From NCBI GenBank assembly GCA_014381755.1, contig JACNLB010000101.1, forward strand, positions 1 to 39,092: a stretch of 39,092 nt of DNA. The letters are read 5' to 3'. Of this stretch, positions 24,282 to 33,286 are shown piece by piece. The DNA is from Fidelibacterota bacterium (GTDB lineage Bacteria > Fidelibacterota > Marinisomatia > Marinisomatales > TCS55). A program made the translations under genes and the position numbers. Below the pieces are notes generated by a model. The model ran no database searches and was not told where the DNA came from. It saw only the letters and a list, made by a program, of their open reading frames with translations. Position 1 is the first letter of the stretch, and every line of letters starts with the position of its first letter.

Positions 24282-25385
24282 TTACACTTTTAATCTTACT
24301 GAAATCAATTGCTCTACAACTTGTTTTACACGTTCTGACGCTTTACCATCTAATTTGTAAAATATATTTTCCCGATCTGTTTTTTGTGCTTTTTTCATCT
24401 CATCCGTTGGGTTTAATGCTAACTTGATTCCTGACTGTAATTCGTCAGGTGAATTGATATGAACAAATGAGTCTTTTAAAAATTCGCGATTATCAAAACC
24501 CAATAGCATCTCGCCGTCAGAGTGTTTTAAACTTTTTTGATCCATATTATAAATAATTCCGGTCTTCCCTGTGGCTAAAAATTCTGTTATTGCCCCAGAC
24601 GCTTCAGATATCAACGTGTCTGCAACGTATAATAATGGCAAAATATTATAATCATCTTTAGGGATAATGATCGAGTGTGGATATTTATCTAATCTTTCTT
24701 CAAATATTTTATGTTGTTTATGAGACGCATATTTCCCCATCCATGAATAATGATGTAACTTAATTATGAGGTTATAATTTTTTGTTGCTTCAAAAATGGC
24801 ATCTTTTAAATCATAGAGGCAGGTTGGCTTATACGTTGGTGCAAATAAGATCACGGGTTTTTCCGGATCAAGTCCTAATGATTTTAGAATCTTTTCTCTA
24901 TCAAAATTCTCTCCGGAAAAATAGTGATCCATTTTAGGGTAACCCACATTATGAATTTCAGATTTACCTATGCTGCCAGATTCTTTTAATGATTTTTCTG
25001 ATAAATCACCTTCAGCAAAAATAATATAGCGATGATCAGAATGCTTTTTTAACTCTCGATATGTGACTGTTTTTGTAAATGTAATTCCATGATAAATTAG
25101 ACAAAGTAGAGCATCTCCATACTTTTTTTCATCAACTACATCCGGTGCAAATACAATATCAAATTTTTCATTTTCGTCACTAATTCGATGACCCTCTTGT
25201 TCAAATTTATTTAAATATTTATTTGTTTCATCTTTATCAAAAAAACCAAATGATCGCTCAACTTCATGCGTCAATGATAAAGCAACATCATAATTTGAAT
25301 CACGTTCAAAGAGTTCAATTAAGGGATCGAACGCAGCCTTATGGTACAGATAAAACATTTTGAATAATACTTTGGTCTTATCCAC
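24282..25385 (-). CDS. CDP-glycerol glycerophosphotransferase family protein
   Basis: PVILFAPTYKPTCLYDLKDAI, LIIKLHHYSW, YVADTLISEASGAITEFLATGKTGIIYN. Confidence 0.82.
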   Translation of the reverse strand: MDKTKVLFKMFYLYHKAAFDPLIELFERDSNYDVALSLTHEVERSFGFFDKDETNKYLNKFEQEGHRISDENEKFDIVFAPDVVDEKKYGDALLCLIYHGITFTKTVTYRELKKHSDHRYIIFAEGDLSEKSLKESGSIGKSEIHNVGYPKMDHYFSGENFDREKILKSLGLDPEKPVILFAPTYKPTCLYDLKDAIFEATKNYNLIIKLHHYSWMGKYASHKQHKIFEERLDKYPHSIIIPKDDYNILPLLYVADTLISEASGAITEFLATGKTGIIYNMDQKSLKHSDGEMLLGFDNREFLKDSFVHINSPDELQSGIKLALNPTDEMKKAQKTDRENIFYKLDGKASERVKQVVEQLISVRLKV

Positions 25386-25390
25386 TTATT

Positions 25391-26446
25391 TTACGCTTGG
25401 CTCCTTGTAATTAATTTTCGAATCTGATATTTACGGATAAAATTTCGAGGTTTTTGGTTTAAATCATTCTGCAATTCATTCGTAAGTATTTCTGTAATTG
25501 CTTTCAGCATTCGATTAGATGAATTTCCATCCGAATATGGATGTACATCCTTTAGACATTTATCTCTATTGGTTGAAAATTCCTCTGGATTTTTCAGGCT
25601 ACGTTCAATAGCAAATGGAAGACCTTCAGGATTTTGGATATTTATTCCTTTTTCTTTCCGGGCTAGCGCTTGATACGTAATAATTGGTCGGTCAAATGAT
25701 AAAAATTCATAGGCAACGGAAGACGTATCCGTAATCATTAAATCAGATCCTGCCATAATGGGTAAAATATTTATTTCATCAACTACACGAAGGTTTTCAT
25801 TCTCCAATTGCTTATATTTTTCTTGAACAGTTTTATCCATTAAAGAATGAAACTTTATAATCCAGTTGTACTTTCCATTATTCAAATTATTGATAACGTC
25901 TAACAATTCAGGAGCTGAAGTATATTTTTCAGGAAAAGTGGGCGCGTAAAGTAAAATGGGTAATTCAGGATTTAATCCATGTTGATTAATCAAATGATCT
26001 TTTTGATTTTTAAAATCCCATTTATCATTATTGACAGGATCCAGTTTTGGCCAACCTGTTTCCTCAACTAAAAAATGTTTATTCTGTTTTGCGATTTTTG
26101 AAAATTTTTCTGTCATGACCGGTCCGGTTGTACAATATAAATCAAAGAATCCTGTTATATTATAAAACCCTTTCACTTCCTCATCCAGTCCATGAAAAAC
26201 CTGTACTTTCAATCCCGGCCAGAAATGGGGAACAACATTGCCAGGTGCAAGGATAACATCGGGGTTATAATTTTGCACTTCCCCATTGGATATTAATTTA
26301 TCACCGGGACAAGAATAATTAGCAGCTGAACTGGCTAAAAACCACTTAACCGTTCCACAATTCGATTCTGAAATTGTGTGTTGAATCGGTTCCAGGATTG
26401 AGAACGAATATGGTTTAGTTACAAAAAATAAATATTTTAACCTCAT
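25391..26446 (-). CDS. CDP-glycerol glycerophosphotransferase family protein (second copy)
   Basis: VFHGLDEEVKGFYN, LPILLYAPTFPEKYTSAPE, WIIKFHSLMD, MAGSDLMITDTSSVAYEFLSFDRPIITYQ; MRLKYLFFVTKP start preferred. Confidence 0.82.
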   Translation of the reverse strand: MRLKYLFFVTKPYSFSILEPIQHTISESNCGTVKWFLASSAANYSCPGDKLISNGEVQNYNPDVILAPGNVVPHFWPGLKVQVFHGLDEEVKGFYNITGFFDLYCTTGPVMTEKFSKIAKQNKHFLVEETGWPKLDPVNNDKWDFKNQKDHLINQHGLNPELPILLYAPTFPEKYTSAPELLDVINNLNNGKYNWIIKFHSLMDKTVQEKYKQLENENLRVVDEINILPIMAGSDLMITDTSSVAYEFLSFDRPIITYQALARKEKGINIQNPEGLPFAIERSLKNPEEFSTNRDKCLKDVHPYSDGNSSNRMLKAITEILTNELQNDLNQKPRNFIRKYQIRKLITRSQA

Positions 26447-26633
26447 TGACTTACCAGCTTCGAAATAGTGTGAAATTGAAAAAAAGGACATTTTGGAGCA
26501 GTATCGAGCATAAAACGTAAATATGTAAAACGTAAAACTGTCCAATTACATAATTTCGTTTTACATATTTTAATAGCATTATGAATTCTCTATCCACTAT
26601 TTTTTTATTATTTATTTCAATTAGTACACTCAC

Positions 26634-27746
26634 TCATGAATTCTTCAGACTATATAATTCTTTCAAAATACCTAATACGTCATCCGTTGATAAATCCACT
26701 ATATTATTATCCATCCGACCTTTCGTAAATGATTCTTCTGCTAATCTTGGAAGTTGTTCTTCAGTAATTCCCCATTCGTCCAGCGTATAAGGAATGATAC
26801 CTTGAGGAATTTCTTTTATCGTTTGTTTTAATTCATCATAAGTTAATTCATTATTTTTACAAATTCTTTCTACTGGTTCCTCGATCAATTTTCCATTTAT
26901 TTCCAGTAAGGGTAATAAACTGATTGAAGACGCAACACCATGGGGAATTCCATAATGGATAGTCAGCGGATAACTTATAGAATGAGCCGCAGCTGTTGTT
27001 GTATTTGAAAATGCCAAACCTGCAACAGTAGACGCTTTCAATAAATTATTGCGAACATCTAAATCTTTGGGATTTTCTTTCAATGATGTAGCATTTATTA
27101 AAATCGAACAAATAGCTGATATCGCTAAATCAGTTGAAGTGGGGTTCGCTTTCTTATTCCAAATAGATTCAAAACTATGGCTTAATGCATCCATCACAGT
27201 TGTGATTGAAATATCCATGGGAAGGGATAATGTCAAATTTCCATCTAAAATAGCTACAGTTGGATAGAGGTTCGGATGGGATATTGAATACTTCTTTTTT
27301 TCCTGCATATTCCATACAGTCCCCCACATGGTTACTTCACTTGCTGTACCGTGAGTTGTAGGTAGAAAAATGGATGGAATTGTTTGAGAAAACTCTCCAT
27401 CATATTCCAATAGTTCGTTTATATCCGATTTTTCCAAGCACAAGTGTGCCATAACTACTTTTGCCAGATCCATGGCAGAACCGCCTCCGATGGCGACAAC
27501 ACCATCAAACATGTTTTTCTGGCAAAATTTTATAGCATTCGTACAATCCTTAAAATTTGGATTACTGCTCACAGCACTAAAAATGGAATCAGAGTCGAAT
27601 TTTGAATTTAAGTGTAATCGTTTTCTATTTCCCTGTGTTGTTACAATGATTGGGGAAGAAATTTTTAAATCTCCAATTCTGAAGTTTAATTCGCGTTGCC
27701 AATTTTCAGTTTTAATAATTCTTACAGGATTATAATAATTAGACAT
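26634..27746 (-). CDS. Iron-containing alcohol dehydrogenase, probable phosphonoacetaldehyde reductase (PhpC/FomC-like)
   Basis: AIGGGSAMDLAKVV, PTTHGTASEVTMWGTVWN, TVMDALSHSFESIWNKKANP, HSISYPLTIHYGIPHGVASS; located directly after ppd. Confidence 0.85.
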   Translation of the reverse strand: MSNYYNPVRIIKTENWQRELNFRIGDLKISSPIIVTTQGNRKRLHLNSKFDSDSIFSAVSSNPNFKDCTNAIKFCQKNMFDGVVAIGGGSAMDLAKVVMAHLCLEKSDINELLEYDGEFSQTIPSIFLPTTHGTASEVTMWGTVWNMQEKKKYSISHPNLYPTVAILDGNLTLSLPMDISITTVMDALSHSFESIWNKKANPTSTDLAISAICSILINATSLKENPKDLDVRNNLLKASTVAGLAFSNTTTAAAHSISYPLTIHYGIPHGVASSISLLPLLEINGKLIEEPVERICKNNELTYDELKQTIKEIPQGIIPYTLDEWGITEEQLPRLAEESFTKGRMDNNIVDLSTDDVLGILKELYSLKNS

Positions 27747-27760
27747 ATCAGGATTTATAA

Positions 27761-28894
27761 TTACTTATTTAGAAATTTCATAAAATTTTCTTTATTTTCA
27801 ACTGGTTTGATTGTTGGCCTGCCTAAATCGCCTCTTGAACCCGGTTTTATTTTTATTTCTAAAAACGATGGACCGGCACACGTCATAAAATCTGTAATGA
27901 TTGTTTTTAAATCATCTGGTGTGGCCGCATTAAACACATTAGTCGATCCAACAGCTTCAGCTATTGCTGACAAATCTAAATTCTTTGCAGCTGTTTCTTG
28001 TCCACCCACAGATTCATGGACTTCATTATTCATTAAAATATGCCGAAAATTACCCGGTTTCATACTTGCAATGGATGTGAGGCTGCCAAGATGCATTAAC
28101 ATAGCTCCATCTCCATCAATACACACCACTTCTCTATGAGGTTTGGCCAAAGCAATCCCCAGAGCAATTGAAGAACAGTGACCCATGGAGCCCACTGTCA
28201 GGAAGTCCTGCTCATGTGTTTGCTTTCTTTTTTCACGAATCTCAAAAATTTCTCTGGATGTTTTTCCTGTTGTGGAAACAACAATGGTATTATCATTTAG
28301 ATTCTCTAAAATAATTTCTAATGCTTCTTCCCGATTCATTCGCTGATCATCGGATTGTGTAATTTCGGTTTTATATTTTTCAAATGTACCTTTTTTGATC
28401 AGGAGTACCACCGGCCTGTTTTCGGTTTTGGCAATTTCGACTAAATGTGTAATCTTCAAATCGAACTGATCATCTTCTTTTGATATAATTTCATATGGAA
28501 GACCCAGCGCCTTCAGTAGTTCTATCTGCACTCTACCCTGCGTTATATGCTGGGGTTCATCTTTTACGCCCGGTTCACCTCGCCAGCCGACTATTACTAA
28601 TAACGGAATTGAATACACATCCGGATCGCATAATGATAAAAGTGGATTTACTGCATTTCCCAAACCGGAATTCTGCATATAAACTAACGGCAATGATTTA
28701 TTAGCTAAAAAATAACCGGTAGCTAAAGCGACAGCATTGCCCTCATTGGCTGCAATAATATGTTTTTCTTTGGAAATTCGATCGTCGATACATAAACAAA
28801 ATTCTTTCAGAAGAGAATCCGGAACTCCTGCAAAAAATTCTACTCCATGGCTGGCTAACTGATCGTAGAAATCAGTCGGTTTAATTGCCATCAA
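27761..28894 (-). CDS. ppd: Phosphonopyruvate decarboxylase
   Basis: [59 protein letters not shown], ThPP motif [30 protein letters not shown]. Confidence 0.95.
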
Positions 28895-30210
28895 TTAACC
28901 TCGGGAATAAGTGTAATAATATCTTTAATGGACATGCAGTATTGGTCTGATGCTTCTTTTGATCGCGAATTCTCCAGAATGGATCGGGCTGCATTTATCA
29001 TGGAAGGATATGCTGACCGCAGTAAATGATTAGCATAAATAATGACATTAACGCCTAAAGCCTGCAAGTCTGATTCAGTCATATGGGCATATGTTGAAGG
29101 CACCACAACTAGTGGAACTTTCATTTCAAACGATTGAAATTTTTCGCAGAATTCAATTATTTCTTTACCATCTTTTTCCTTGCTGTGAATCATAATTCCA
29201 TCAGCTCCGGCAGCAATATATGCTTCGGCTCGTTTGAGGGCATCATCCATACCTTTTTTCAAAATCAAACTTTCCACACGAGCAACGATCATAAAGTCAG
29301 TCGTAACCTGGGACTGTTTTCCTTCATGAATTTTCTGGGAAAAATGTTCGATTGAATCCTGTTGCTGCGGAACAGTCGTTCCAAAAAGTGAATTTCGTTT
29401 ATCGCCAACCTTATCTTCAATAATGATAGCCGAAACACCTAATCTTTCCAACGTTTTTACCCTGAACTTAAAATGATCAATTCTGCCGCCTGTATCTCCA
29501 TCTACAATCATTGGTTTTGTAGTGACTTCTAATATTTCTTCAATGGTCGAAAACCGTGAAGAAAAATCCACAAGTTCTGTGTCGGGCTTTCCTTTGGCTG
29601 TAGAATCGGTAAGACTGCTTTCCCATATGCCGTCAAATTCTATTTTTCTACCATCTTTTTCTATACTGGTTTTTTCTACAATCAGTCCCGTTAATCCATT
29701 ATGCGCTTCTAAAATTCTCACGATTGGTTTTACATTAATCAACCGTCGCAGAGTTTTCATCCGCTTTCCGGGAGTGATGCCTTGTGCTTTAACAGCCGTA
29801 ATCAAATCAGTTGATGAAATTCCTTCCGTGTATTTTGGTTCTACAAGTTCCCCGCCCCATTCAGCCAAGGCATCTATAACTTGTTGGCGGACTTCTCTCT
29901 GAATACCTGTTTTCCAATCATCACCGTGGACAACATAATCCGGTTTTATTTCTTTTAAATTTGGAACATAATCCAAAGTTGTTTGGGGTACAACCTTCTC
30001 TACACCTTTTAGATTTTCCACAATCACTTTACGTTCATCAAATGCAATTAATGGCAAGCGCTTATAACTTGCTATCGCTTCATCTGTAAGTAATCCTATA
30101 ATCACTTTACCCAGCTTGCAGCCTTCAGCGATAATGTTCAAATGGCCTTGGTGAATCAGGTCAGCTGACATCCCTATATATACTTTTTTTGAGTTTTTAT
30201 TATCTGTCAT
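28891..30210 (-). CDS. pepM: Phosphoenolpyruvate mutase with fused N-terminal nucleotidyltransferase domain
   Basis: N-terminal [15 protein letters not shown] (HxGH); C-terminal PEP mutase signature [29 protein letters not shown]. Confidence 0.95.
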
Positions 30211-30236: not shown

Positions 30237-31430
30237 TTAAAATCCTTTTTCTGCAATGGAGCCATCATGTAATCCAGCGTTATAATTTTGCTCTGGAACT
30301 TGCCAATTTCCATAACGCAGAGAAAGATATTCTTCTGCATGATTAGGTATATTAATTGTGCGCCCCTCCCACTCGATTGTACTCAGTGAATCATAAAATT
30401 TTCTATCCACGTGCTTTAATGCATTGCTGTCCACCCAGCGATATTTATCATTTACGGGGTATACACAAAATAAATCGATGTGAAAATTAATCTGTCGTAT
30501 CTTTTCCCAGGGTGTTTTTATTTTTATCACACGCATATCTCCCGGAATCCAAAGAGAATTAATTCTCCTCCTTTTAATCAAGTATTTGGGTAAAAATTCC
30601 AAACGCAGTTTCATGATTTCATCGGCAGATTCTGCAGGTATCCCTAAATCTGCATCGTAGTCCCAAGAAATTAAATCCCCATCACGCATAATTCCCAAAA
30701 GCGTGCCGGCTTCCAACCAATATTTGAACCCTTTTTCATTCAAAATATCAATCGTTTTCAGCAGCATATTTTTCATGCGCTGATGGTAATTTCCTTTTTG
30801 TAATTGGATTTTGTCCAAAGGTGAAGCATTAAGCACTTTTTTAAAAGGAATTTGTTTTAAAGTAGAATTATTTACAATGGTGCTGTCATCTATACTGGCT
30901 ATCCAATTTAAATCTGGATTTTTCCAATTCTCTCCAAATCGTATTCTTAAATAATCTTCAGTATTTTGAGGAACTGGAAAAGTGTTTCCACCCATATTAA
31001 TTTTATTCAATTTTTCGTAATACTTATTATCTATTTCTTTACAGCTGCGTTTATCAACCCAACGGTGTTTTTTATCCACTTTATACTTGGGAGTAATAAA
31101 AACTTTAAACGCTTTTTGTTTATGTTTCCAGCGGCTCAATACAGCAAGACGACAATATTCATTTTTTATCCAATTTCGTCCTGATCGATCAGGAATTAAT
31201 TGAAAACGATAAGCCAAACCTAATTCTTTCTCTAGAGTCAATAATTTTGAAAAATATTTACCCGGAATACTTAACCGTACATTTCTGTCTTGAGGAACTG
31301 TACAGTCACATTTTTTTCCCATTACCGCCAATAATGTTTTGGTGTCCAACCAAAAAGGAATACTATTATTTTTTAATAATTTTACTGTAGACGAAAAGAG
31401 GTTTGTATTTAACTGGCGTGTAATATCCAT
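30237..31430 (-). CDS. LicD-like protein with two tandem homologous domains
   Basis: C-terminal half [31 protein letters not shown]...[17 protein letters not shown]...[15 protein letters not shown]-terminal half repeats it as [33 protein letters not shown]...[17 protein letters not shown]...[15 protein letters not shown]. Confidence 0.82.
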
Positions 31431-31456: not shown

Positions 31457-33286
31457 TTACTTGAACTGAAAATTGTATAGATTACTGTAATGTCCCGCTT
31501 TTTCCATGAGTTCATTGTGAGTCCCCATTTCTTTAATCTCACCTTTATCCAAAACTATAATTTTATCGGCATTTGTCACAGTTGACAATCGATGGGCAAT
31601 CACTAATACCGTACGGTCAGCCATGAGTGTTTCAAGCGCTTCCTGGACCAAGCGTTCTGATTCAGTATCTAAAGCGGACGTTGCTTCATCAAGAATAAGA
31701 ATCGGCGGGTTTTTCATAATGGCACGTGCAATTGCCAATCGTTGACGCTGCCCGCCGGAAAGTTTAACACCCTTCTCGCCAATCACCGTATTTAGTCCTT
31801 CCGAAAGGTCATTGATAAATTCCAATGCATTGGCAGCTTTAGATGCAGCTAGAACCTGTTCTTCATTTATGATTTGCTGGCCGTAAGCAATGTTTGCCCG
31901 GATTGAATCATTAAATAAAATCGTCTCCTGAGTTACGATTCCCATCATACTCCGTAGGGAGTTTAAAGTAATATTTTGAATGTTTTGCCCATCAATTGTA
32001 ATGGAGCCTTGGTTTATATCATAAAAACGGGGAATTAAGTCCGCCAATGTTGATTTTCCCGCACCGCTGGATCCGACCAGAGCAACCACTGATCCTTTTT
32101 CAATTTCGAAGGAAATATCATGCAAAACTGTATCATCAGTTTCATAATTAAAACTCACATTATTAAATCTGATCTTCTCTTCAAACGTATCAATTGTTGC
32201 TGCATCCTGTTTATTTACAATGGTTGGAGTTGTGTCTAATATTGCAAAAATGCGCTCTGCGGACGCAGCGCCTGCCTGCAGCGAAACATTTACTTTACTC
32301 AATTTTCTTAATGGGTCCATCATGGCAAATAGTAGAAGAATAAACCGCAAGAAATCTTCGGGGGTTAAACCCTTGCCGCTCAAGACTTCTATTCCACCAA
32401 CCCAGAGTAATAAGACCCCTATCATTACACCAAGCGTTTCTGTAATGGGCGATGCCAATAAACGGAGTTTTGCCCTGCGGAGAATTAATTGAAAATATTG
32501 ACGCGTTTCTTTGAAGAATCGTTGAACTTCATACTCTTCCATTGCAAACGCTTTGACCACTCGAATAGAAGACAATGTTTCTGTAATAATATTGGTAATA
32601 CCGGCAATCATTTCAGCCGTGCGCTTAGATTTGCGACGAATACTTCTTCCGATTGTGAAAATAGTAAATCCAGCAATAGGGAGTATGATTAAAGATAGTA
32701 ATGCCAGTTTCCAGCTGATAATAAATAAAAGCGATATAAAAGCCAGTAAATTAATTGGTTCAACGAGGAGTTGATGGAAACTGGTACCTAATGCACGACG
32801 CAAATTGGCTACATCATTGATTACAATTGACGTTAATTCACCTGATTTATTCTGATTGAAATACGATAGCGATAATGAATTAAAATGTTCGTAAAGACGA
32901 TTGCGCATTTCTGTGATTAAATGGTATTGAACCATCGTCACTGAAATATTTTTCAAGTAAAGAAATACATTTTTTGTCAGGAATACAACCATAATGGTCA
33001 GGCACAATACTTTCAATGTGTCCTGAGGAGTTTCTCGAAGAATTAATCCATTTGTCCAAAATTTTAATTTTTCATTCAGGGTAAGTGTTCCATGCTCTGC
33101 CATCTGTGAGTGGTCAGTCAATAACTGGTTGAAGTCCATCAAAATGTTATTGATCAAGGACGCTGTCAGCCAAATCGAGGCACTATTTAATACGACGTAT
33201 ACCAGGGCAGCCAGCGTAGACAGCAGTAAATACGGCCAATGCTGAATAACAAGTTTGATCATACGCTTATAGAGGGATTCTTGCAT
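31457..33286 (-). CDS. ABC transporter, fused permease/ATPase (MsbA-like exporter)
   Basis: 6-TM region; GSSGAGKSTLADLIPRFYD, VKLSGGQRQRLAIARAIMKNPPILILDEATSALD. Confidence 0.95.
   Translation of the reverse strand: MQESLYKRMIKLVIQHWPYLLLSTLAALVYVVLNSASIWLTASLINNILMDFNQLLTDHSQMAEHGTLTLNEKLKFWTNGLILRETPQDTLKVLCLTIMVVFLTKNVFLYLKNISVTMVQYHLITEMRNRLYEHFNSLSLSYFNQNKSGELTSIVINDVANLRRALGTSFHQLLVEPINLLAFISLLFIISWKLALLSLIILPIAGFTIFTIGRSIRRKSKRTAEMIAGITNIITETLSSIRVVKAFAMEEYEVQRFFKETRQYFQLILRRAKLRLLASPITETLGVMIGVLLLWVGGIEVLSGKGLTPEDFLRFILLLFAMMDPLRKLSKVNVSLQAGAASAERIFAILDTTPTIVNKQDAATIDTFEEKIRFNNVSFNYETDDTVLHDISFEIEKGSVVALVGSSGAGKSTLADLIPRFYDINQGSITIDGQNIQNITLNSLRSMMGIVTQETILFNDSIRANIAYGQQIINEEQVLAASKAANALEFINDLSEGLNTVIGEKGVKLSGGQRQRLAIARAIMKNPPILILDEATSALDTESERLVQEALETLMADRTVLVIAHRLSTVTNADKIIVLDKGEIKEMGTHNELMEKAGHYSNLYNFQFK

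Follow-up and report, generated by a model that had tools for sequence, protein, structure and literature searches.

The window, by which the whole analysed stretch of 39,092 nucleotides is meant, carries on its minus strand a LicD-family gene lying between an ABC exporter gene and the genes of phosphonate metabolism. The features of the locus and of the LicD product (P0001) are the following:

24282..25385, minus strand: PF04464-like transferase 2 (63.8 bits, cut-off 22.1)
25391..26545, minus strand: PF04464 (CDP-glycerol glycerophosphotransferase-like) transferase 1, assigned by Pfam, conserved downstream
26634..27746, minus strand: iron-containing alcohol dehydrogenase (PF25137/PF00465; TIGR03405 239 bits, below the cut-off of 424)
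27761..28894, minus strand: phosphonopyruvate decarboxylase (TIGR03297 491 bits, cut-off 312)
28891..30210, minus strand: cytidylyltransferase-PEP mutase fusion, 439 aa (PF01467 53 bits; PF13714 190 bits; TIGR02320 397 bits, cut-off 320)
30237..31430, minus strand: two-domain LicD protein, 397 aa (ORF with ATG start; Pfam LicD)
30255..30770, minus strand: its C-terminal copy, residues 221-392, an intact LicD domain (similarity to FKRP; conserved motif GTRWDDDD)
30801..30875, minus strand: linker, about residues 186-210, of low model confidence (pLDDT <50 over residues 174-210)
30876..31403, minus strand: N-terminal copy, residues 10-185, predicted LicD fold with the metal site lost (alignment, profiles, predicted fold, residue comparison)
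31457..33286, minus strand: MsbA-like ABC exporter, the conserved upstream neighbour (TIGR02203 522 bits, below the cut-off of 602)

The fusion enzyme contains the PEP mutase motif EDKxxxxxNS, as given in PMC6697681; its product is phosphonopyruvate, and CTP-dependent activation of the phosphonate is probably its second function. The iron-containing alcohol dehydrogenase, certain as to family, is a probable phosphonoacetaldehyde reductase, possibly of the phpC type, with 2-hydroxyethylphosphonate as its product. The LicD gene belongs to a phosphonate operon in Marinimicrobia, a context that goes beyond the preliminary description of this DNA. The placing of the window in a Candidatus Marinimicrobia assembly is drawn from its relatives, the five retrieved first all belonging to this phylum. 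The gene order is kept in close relatives where the contigs allow (L050-L055, L057), and LicD directly adjoins the phosphonate cytidylyltransferase gene in these close relatives. Among 245 genomes of the phylum, the fusion enzyme was found in 14 of the 17 with a window-type LicD and in 10 of the 228 others (Fisher p 5e-14, the test taking the genomes as independent though they are related, and one of the 14 being a fragment at a contig end). Three genomes have the window-type LicD and no fusion enzyme (G213, G215, G220), and in the ten with the fusion enzyme no window-type LicD was detected, in some of them owing to contig ends; the LicD gene order beside the phosphonate genes is not universal. 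The two PF04464 proteins of the window's genome both lie in the phosphonate cluster. At other loci, the fusion enzyme, the decarboxylase and the iron-containing alcohol dehydrogenase are all present in L078 (genome G155), where the LicD site is occupied by a different kind of gene on the other strand. ORFs of about 380 aa of one family (YHVYHSAPTAFELS...), read as another type of transferase, near or adjoining phosphonate genes or PF04464 neighbours, occur at L062:8916-10067, L064:7575-8711 and L080:8196-9350, where they stand in the place of the LicD of close relatives and resemble PF04464 by eye.

The 397-aa protein matches Pfam LicD (PF04991) with 57.6 bits against the gathering cut-off of 22.6, the best stretch lying in the C half, and it is the sole LicD match in the window's assembly, the completeness of which is 89%. 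Residues 10-185 and 221-392 align over their whole length with 51 of 177 positions identical (29%), the halves matching each other by BLASTP at E 4e-27 (composition adjustment off) and by Smith-Waterman with a score of 224, while the maximum over 2000 shuffles was 80 (0/2000 as good); the profiles of the N and C halves of 16 relatives match at E 3e-46, a single comparison with an uncalibrated E value. The two tandem LicD copies of the preliminary description are thus borne out by the 29% identity, the E value and the shuffles, the three blocks by which the halves had been aligned proved real and in register, and the motif said to differ between them does so, the C half having W256-D257-Y-D259-A-D261-L-G-I and the N half Q47-D48-R-N50-V-R52-L-S-I. 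That the ORF consists of two tandem LicD domains is practically certain, chance similarity or a repeat artefact being ruled out by the same BLASTP and shuffling results. Across six genomes of the window's family the gene shows 81-100% identity (five of them at 81-87% to the window copy), and since all six copies are equal in length (397 codons) and free of stops, a sequencing artefact is excluded. A pseudogene is likewise rejected for the window's clade, in view of the six intact 397-codon copies and of dN/dS well below 1. In genome G112, an ORF of 86 aa (L065 14805-15062) occupies the canonical site, flanked by the ABC gene and the PEP mutase fusion gene, and its end is a remnant of the canonical LicD's C-terminal part; the same contig has a divergent two-domain LicD of 432 aa about 4.5 kb from it.

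The C half matches human FKRP by sequence at E 3.7e-15, with D360, D362, D364 and D416 of FKRP (numbering of PMC6965139) aligned to D257, D259, D261 and D319, and with the FKRP hG[GS] aligned to A241-G242-T243. In every one of the 29 aligned rows, those of single-domain LicD among them, positions 242, 243, 249, 256, 257, 259, 261 and 319 are G, T, R, W, D, D, D and D. Judged by these residues, the C half has an intact LicD active site with all four catalytic Asp of FKRP kept, and the C copy is predicted, with high probability, to be catalytically active.

The N half alone, when compared by sequence with the solved structures, found FKRP only at E 2.3, and a comparison of folds was therefore needed. 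The AlphaFold2 model of the N half alone (5-sequence alignment, pLDDT 73, pTM 0.76) had its best Foldseek matches in the PDB with FKRP (E 7.8e-7) and the nucleotidyltransferases LnuA (8.8e-7) and ANT(2'')-Ia (1.1e-4), the TM score against FKRP being 0.58-0.61 on the query. In the full-length model, built on a shallow alignment of 11 rows (pTM 0.50, the relative placement of the domains being of low confidence), the helices and strands follow in the same order in the N and C halves. A LicD/nucleotidyltransferase fold is thereby predicted for the N half, which the preliminary description had allowed might turn out not to be LicD-like.

The residues of the active site are replaced in this copy: K31, K40, Q47, D48, N50, R52 and F111 of the window N half stand at the equivalents of G242, R249, W256, D257, D259, D261 and D319. 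Of the 16 window-type N halves, 14 have Asn and 2 have Lys at the position of FKRP D362; at that of D416 they carry F, I, Y, N or S, and the catalytic Asp set is kept in none of them. An intact metal site formed by other residues, the second reservation of the preliminary description, was sought by sequence among the 15 full-length relatives, and no conserved acidic cluster was found in the N half, because the only invariant acidic residue is D182, close to the domain end; D29 and D81 are nearly invariant and form no DxD cluster. A rebuilt metal site appears unlikely from these alignments. The N half is a homologous domain with catalysis lost rather than an active LicD, and the earlier claim of a catalytically dead N copy is supported by the absence of the Asp set in 16/16 window-type N halves, so that we hold it with very strong confidence.

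Pairwise dN/dS among the six genomes is 0.13-0.23 for the N half and 0.035-0.06 for the C half, these ratios being approximate as some dS values exceed 1; the N copy evolves faster than the C copy, yet under clear purifying selection. Blocks conserved specifically in the N copy are SGxxW and RW....CK, and its net charge is +4 to +16 against 0 to +6 for the C copy, the N copy being higher than its own C partner in 16/16. The pairwise dN/dS and the N-specific conserved blocks support the retention of the N copy for what would be a non-catalytic purpose.

The explanation that suits these data best, and which as a whole we consider reasonably likely, is that of a LicD-family (FKRP-like) transferase which would have arisen by the tandem duplication of one LicD domain, with the C copy as the enzyme and the N copy as its docking partner. 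The C copy, with Mg2+ held by D257/D259/D261/D319, would move 2-hydroxyethylphosphonate from the CMP-hydroxyethylphosphonate made by the operon to a glycan or glycolipid of the cell surface, at one of its hydroxyls, and the MsbA-like ABC transporter may then export the decorated molecule. The N copy, having kept its fold and lost the metal site, may serve the non-catalytic docking of the anionic acceptor. In FKRP, the stem is a GT-fold domain without the catalytic motif, which contacts the acceptor phosphate from another subunit (PMC6965139); the N and C copies here may form an internal pseudo-dimer that replaces the second subunit giving the acceptor contacts in FKRP, and the duplicated LicD could give both sides within one chain. 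To such a docking or pseudo-dimer role we give a chance slightly below even.

The N copy may otherwise be mainly a scaffold for oligomerisation or stability, that is, an internal dimer or a tetramer mediator without substrate contact, which we consider rather unlikely. Dimerisation is needed for the activity of FKRP, the stem domains of which are the largest contributors to the dimer-dimer interface (PMC6965139), and the conservation of the N copy is mostly of core-type residues (W, L, P, G, Y). However, the N-specific polar blocks and the consistently basic charge exceed the needs of a scaffold, and single-domain LicD relatives without an N copy exist in the same phylum.

As regards the donor, the assembly has eight further PF01467/PF12804 matches, which include CoaD, NadD, RfaE-II, RibF, IspD and KdsB and, as judged by inspection, ManC- and RmlA-like proteins; a cytidylyltransferase of the LicC or TagD type was not found among these matches. 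CMP-hydroxyethylphosphonate is the best donor candidate because of the phosphonate operon and of this absence, and such a phosphonate donor is probable; the compound is made by the similarly fused Fom1, according to PMC6697681. It is unlikely that the C copy uses another CDP-activated donor, such as choline, glycerol or ribitol phosphate, with the PF04464 enzymes handling the phosphonate. The characterised LicD-family enzymes referred to here do use CDP-choline or CDP-ribitol (PMC11982090, PMC6965139), and phosphonate transfer could alternatively fall to the two PF04464 enzymes of the same operon, but the lack of LicC/TagD types among the assembly's PF01467/PF12804 matches and the position of LicD directly beside the phosphonate cytidylyltransferase gene in close relatives argue for the phosphonate donor. 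The acceptor would be a surface glycan, and RfaE-II and KdsB point to heptose/Kdo lipopolysaccharide as a possible one; the probable function of the cluster is to add carbon-phosphorus (phosphonate) groups to the cell surface.

The homologues with the same two-domain layout, a search for which had been proposed in the preliminary description, comprise 16 window-type relatives and a second, very divergent two-domain LicD lineage of about 365-396 aa (L028, L030-L033, L035, L037, L038, L072-L074, L077). The N half of the second lineage is LicD-like by profile, with a probability of 95.7 against single-domain LicD and of 88.5 against its own C halves, and in most members GxESLxGL...N replaces GTLLG...DxD, by which residues this lineage, too, is read as having a dead N copy. 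At L067, L074 and related loci, the second-lineage LicD adjoins CMP-acid synthetase-like, NeuB-type synthase-like (L067) and Kdo transferase-like genes, and at L074 it also adjoins phosphonate genes.

In a tree of 64 LicD halves, the window-type N halves form one group (100/96, starred), and the window-type N and C halves group together (93/90, not starred), separately from both single-domain LicD and the second two-domain lineage. A divergent C group (L022-L025) is not part of this N and C pair, and a topology test with all C halves forced together was not rejected (p-AU 0.18). A duplication inside the gene is favoured as the origin of the tandem because the window-type N and C halves group together, and the tree to this extent favours the internal duplication, followed by the loss of metal-binding residues, that had been suggested at the outset. 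A tandem formed by the fusion of two different LicD genes is distinctly improbable: the clade joining the halves is at 93/90 only, unstarred, and for the two groups of dead N copies monophyly, though disfavoured, is not rejected (p-AU 0.086), but the best tree joins the window-type N and C halves to the exclusion of the single-domain LicD and the second lineage.

Within the duplicated LicD, different stages of the loss are seen in the relatives of the window protein. The N copy of the deep relatives L020 and L021 keeps GTLLG, the equivalents of R249 and W256 and one Asp; those of L022-L025 keep GTLLG (GTLLS in one) and R, the Asp being absent; that of L005 keeps W and one Asp; and in the window's genus GTLLG, R and W are all lost, with only the variable D48 left. 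The decay of the N copy is, on this comparison of residues, stepwise, with the loss of the metal site common to all and the pocket residues apparently lost later. A role of the N copy as an allosteric sensor, with metal-free binding of CMP or of the CMP-activated donor, is very improbable, since, although the GTLLG..R kept in deep relatives means that part of the donor pocket outlasted the Asp losses, the window's genus lost the equivalents of G242 and R249 (K31, K40) and the pocket was therefore not maintained.

Among the known systems, FKRP (PDB 6KAJ-6KAN, 6L7S-6L7U) is, among solved structures, the nearest to both halves in fold and to the C half in sequence, sharing with the window protein the hG[GS] and D360/D362/D364/D416 and having a non-catalytic N domain before the LicD catalytic domain. 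However, the N domain of FKRP is a GT-fold stem resembling ppGalNAcT-10 (PMC6965139), whereas here it is a second LicD/NTase domain by profile and predicted fold, and the donor of FKRP is CDP-ribitol, whereas here it is probably a CMP-phosphonate. The LicD phosphorylcholine transferases and Mycoplasma Mf1 (PF04991, NF045866) share the LicD motif of the C half, but the match to the Mf1 model, which has one LicD domain (240 positions), is 63.7 bits, far below the cut-off of 225, and no choline activation gene was found beside the two-domain LicD gene. The loci for phosphonate tailoring of the cell surface (Pnt) with PntC or Pcy-Ppm fusions, described in PMC6697681, are similar in gene content, in that Ppm is fused to a PF01467 cytidylyltransferase and a LicD-like gene is present in the cluster, LicD-like genes near phosphonate genes being noted there. 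The published loci of this kind use aminoethylphosphonate, whereas here no transaminase is seen and the iron-containing alcohol dehydrogenase points to hydroxyethylphosphonate; nor do the passages on these loci mention a tandem of dead and live LicD.

The C half makes the protein a LicD, and its cluster is of a known type (PMC6697681). In the open-licence papers searched, no pairing of a dead with a live LicD came up; LicD with pseudoenzyme gave no match and the single match for 'LicD domain' with 'tandem' was unrelated. It is tentatively proposed that the surface phosphonate transferases of Marinimicrobia may be an undescribed pseudoenzyme-enzyme tandem, in which a dead LicD would have been kept, possibly twice independently (window type and second lineage), as the built-in acceptor-docking partner of the live copy, in parallel to the dead-GT stem of FKRP, with the active site decayed in visible steps. 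For an uncultured marine phylum, the locus provides a concrete transferase candidate that adjoins the gene making the donor and, in parallel to human FKRP, a bacterial example of its two-domain logic. The active-site loss is graded within one domain of one protein, and the role of the dead copy is therefore testable by the comparison of stages.

In the plasmid and phage collections, four Paracoccus plasmids matched the C half only and no phage matched. The LicD relatives on viral contigs are too divergent for placement in the tree; two of these contigs (L048:3941-5128, L049:3440-4678) have a single ORF of about 400 aa with a LicD-like and a cytidylyltransferase-like domain (VFIEGVWDLFHQGHVELL...), so that a single protein carried by a virus may synthesise its CDP-activated donor as well as use it.
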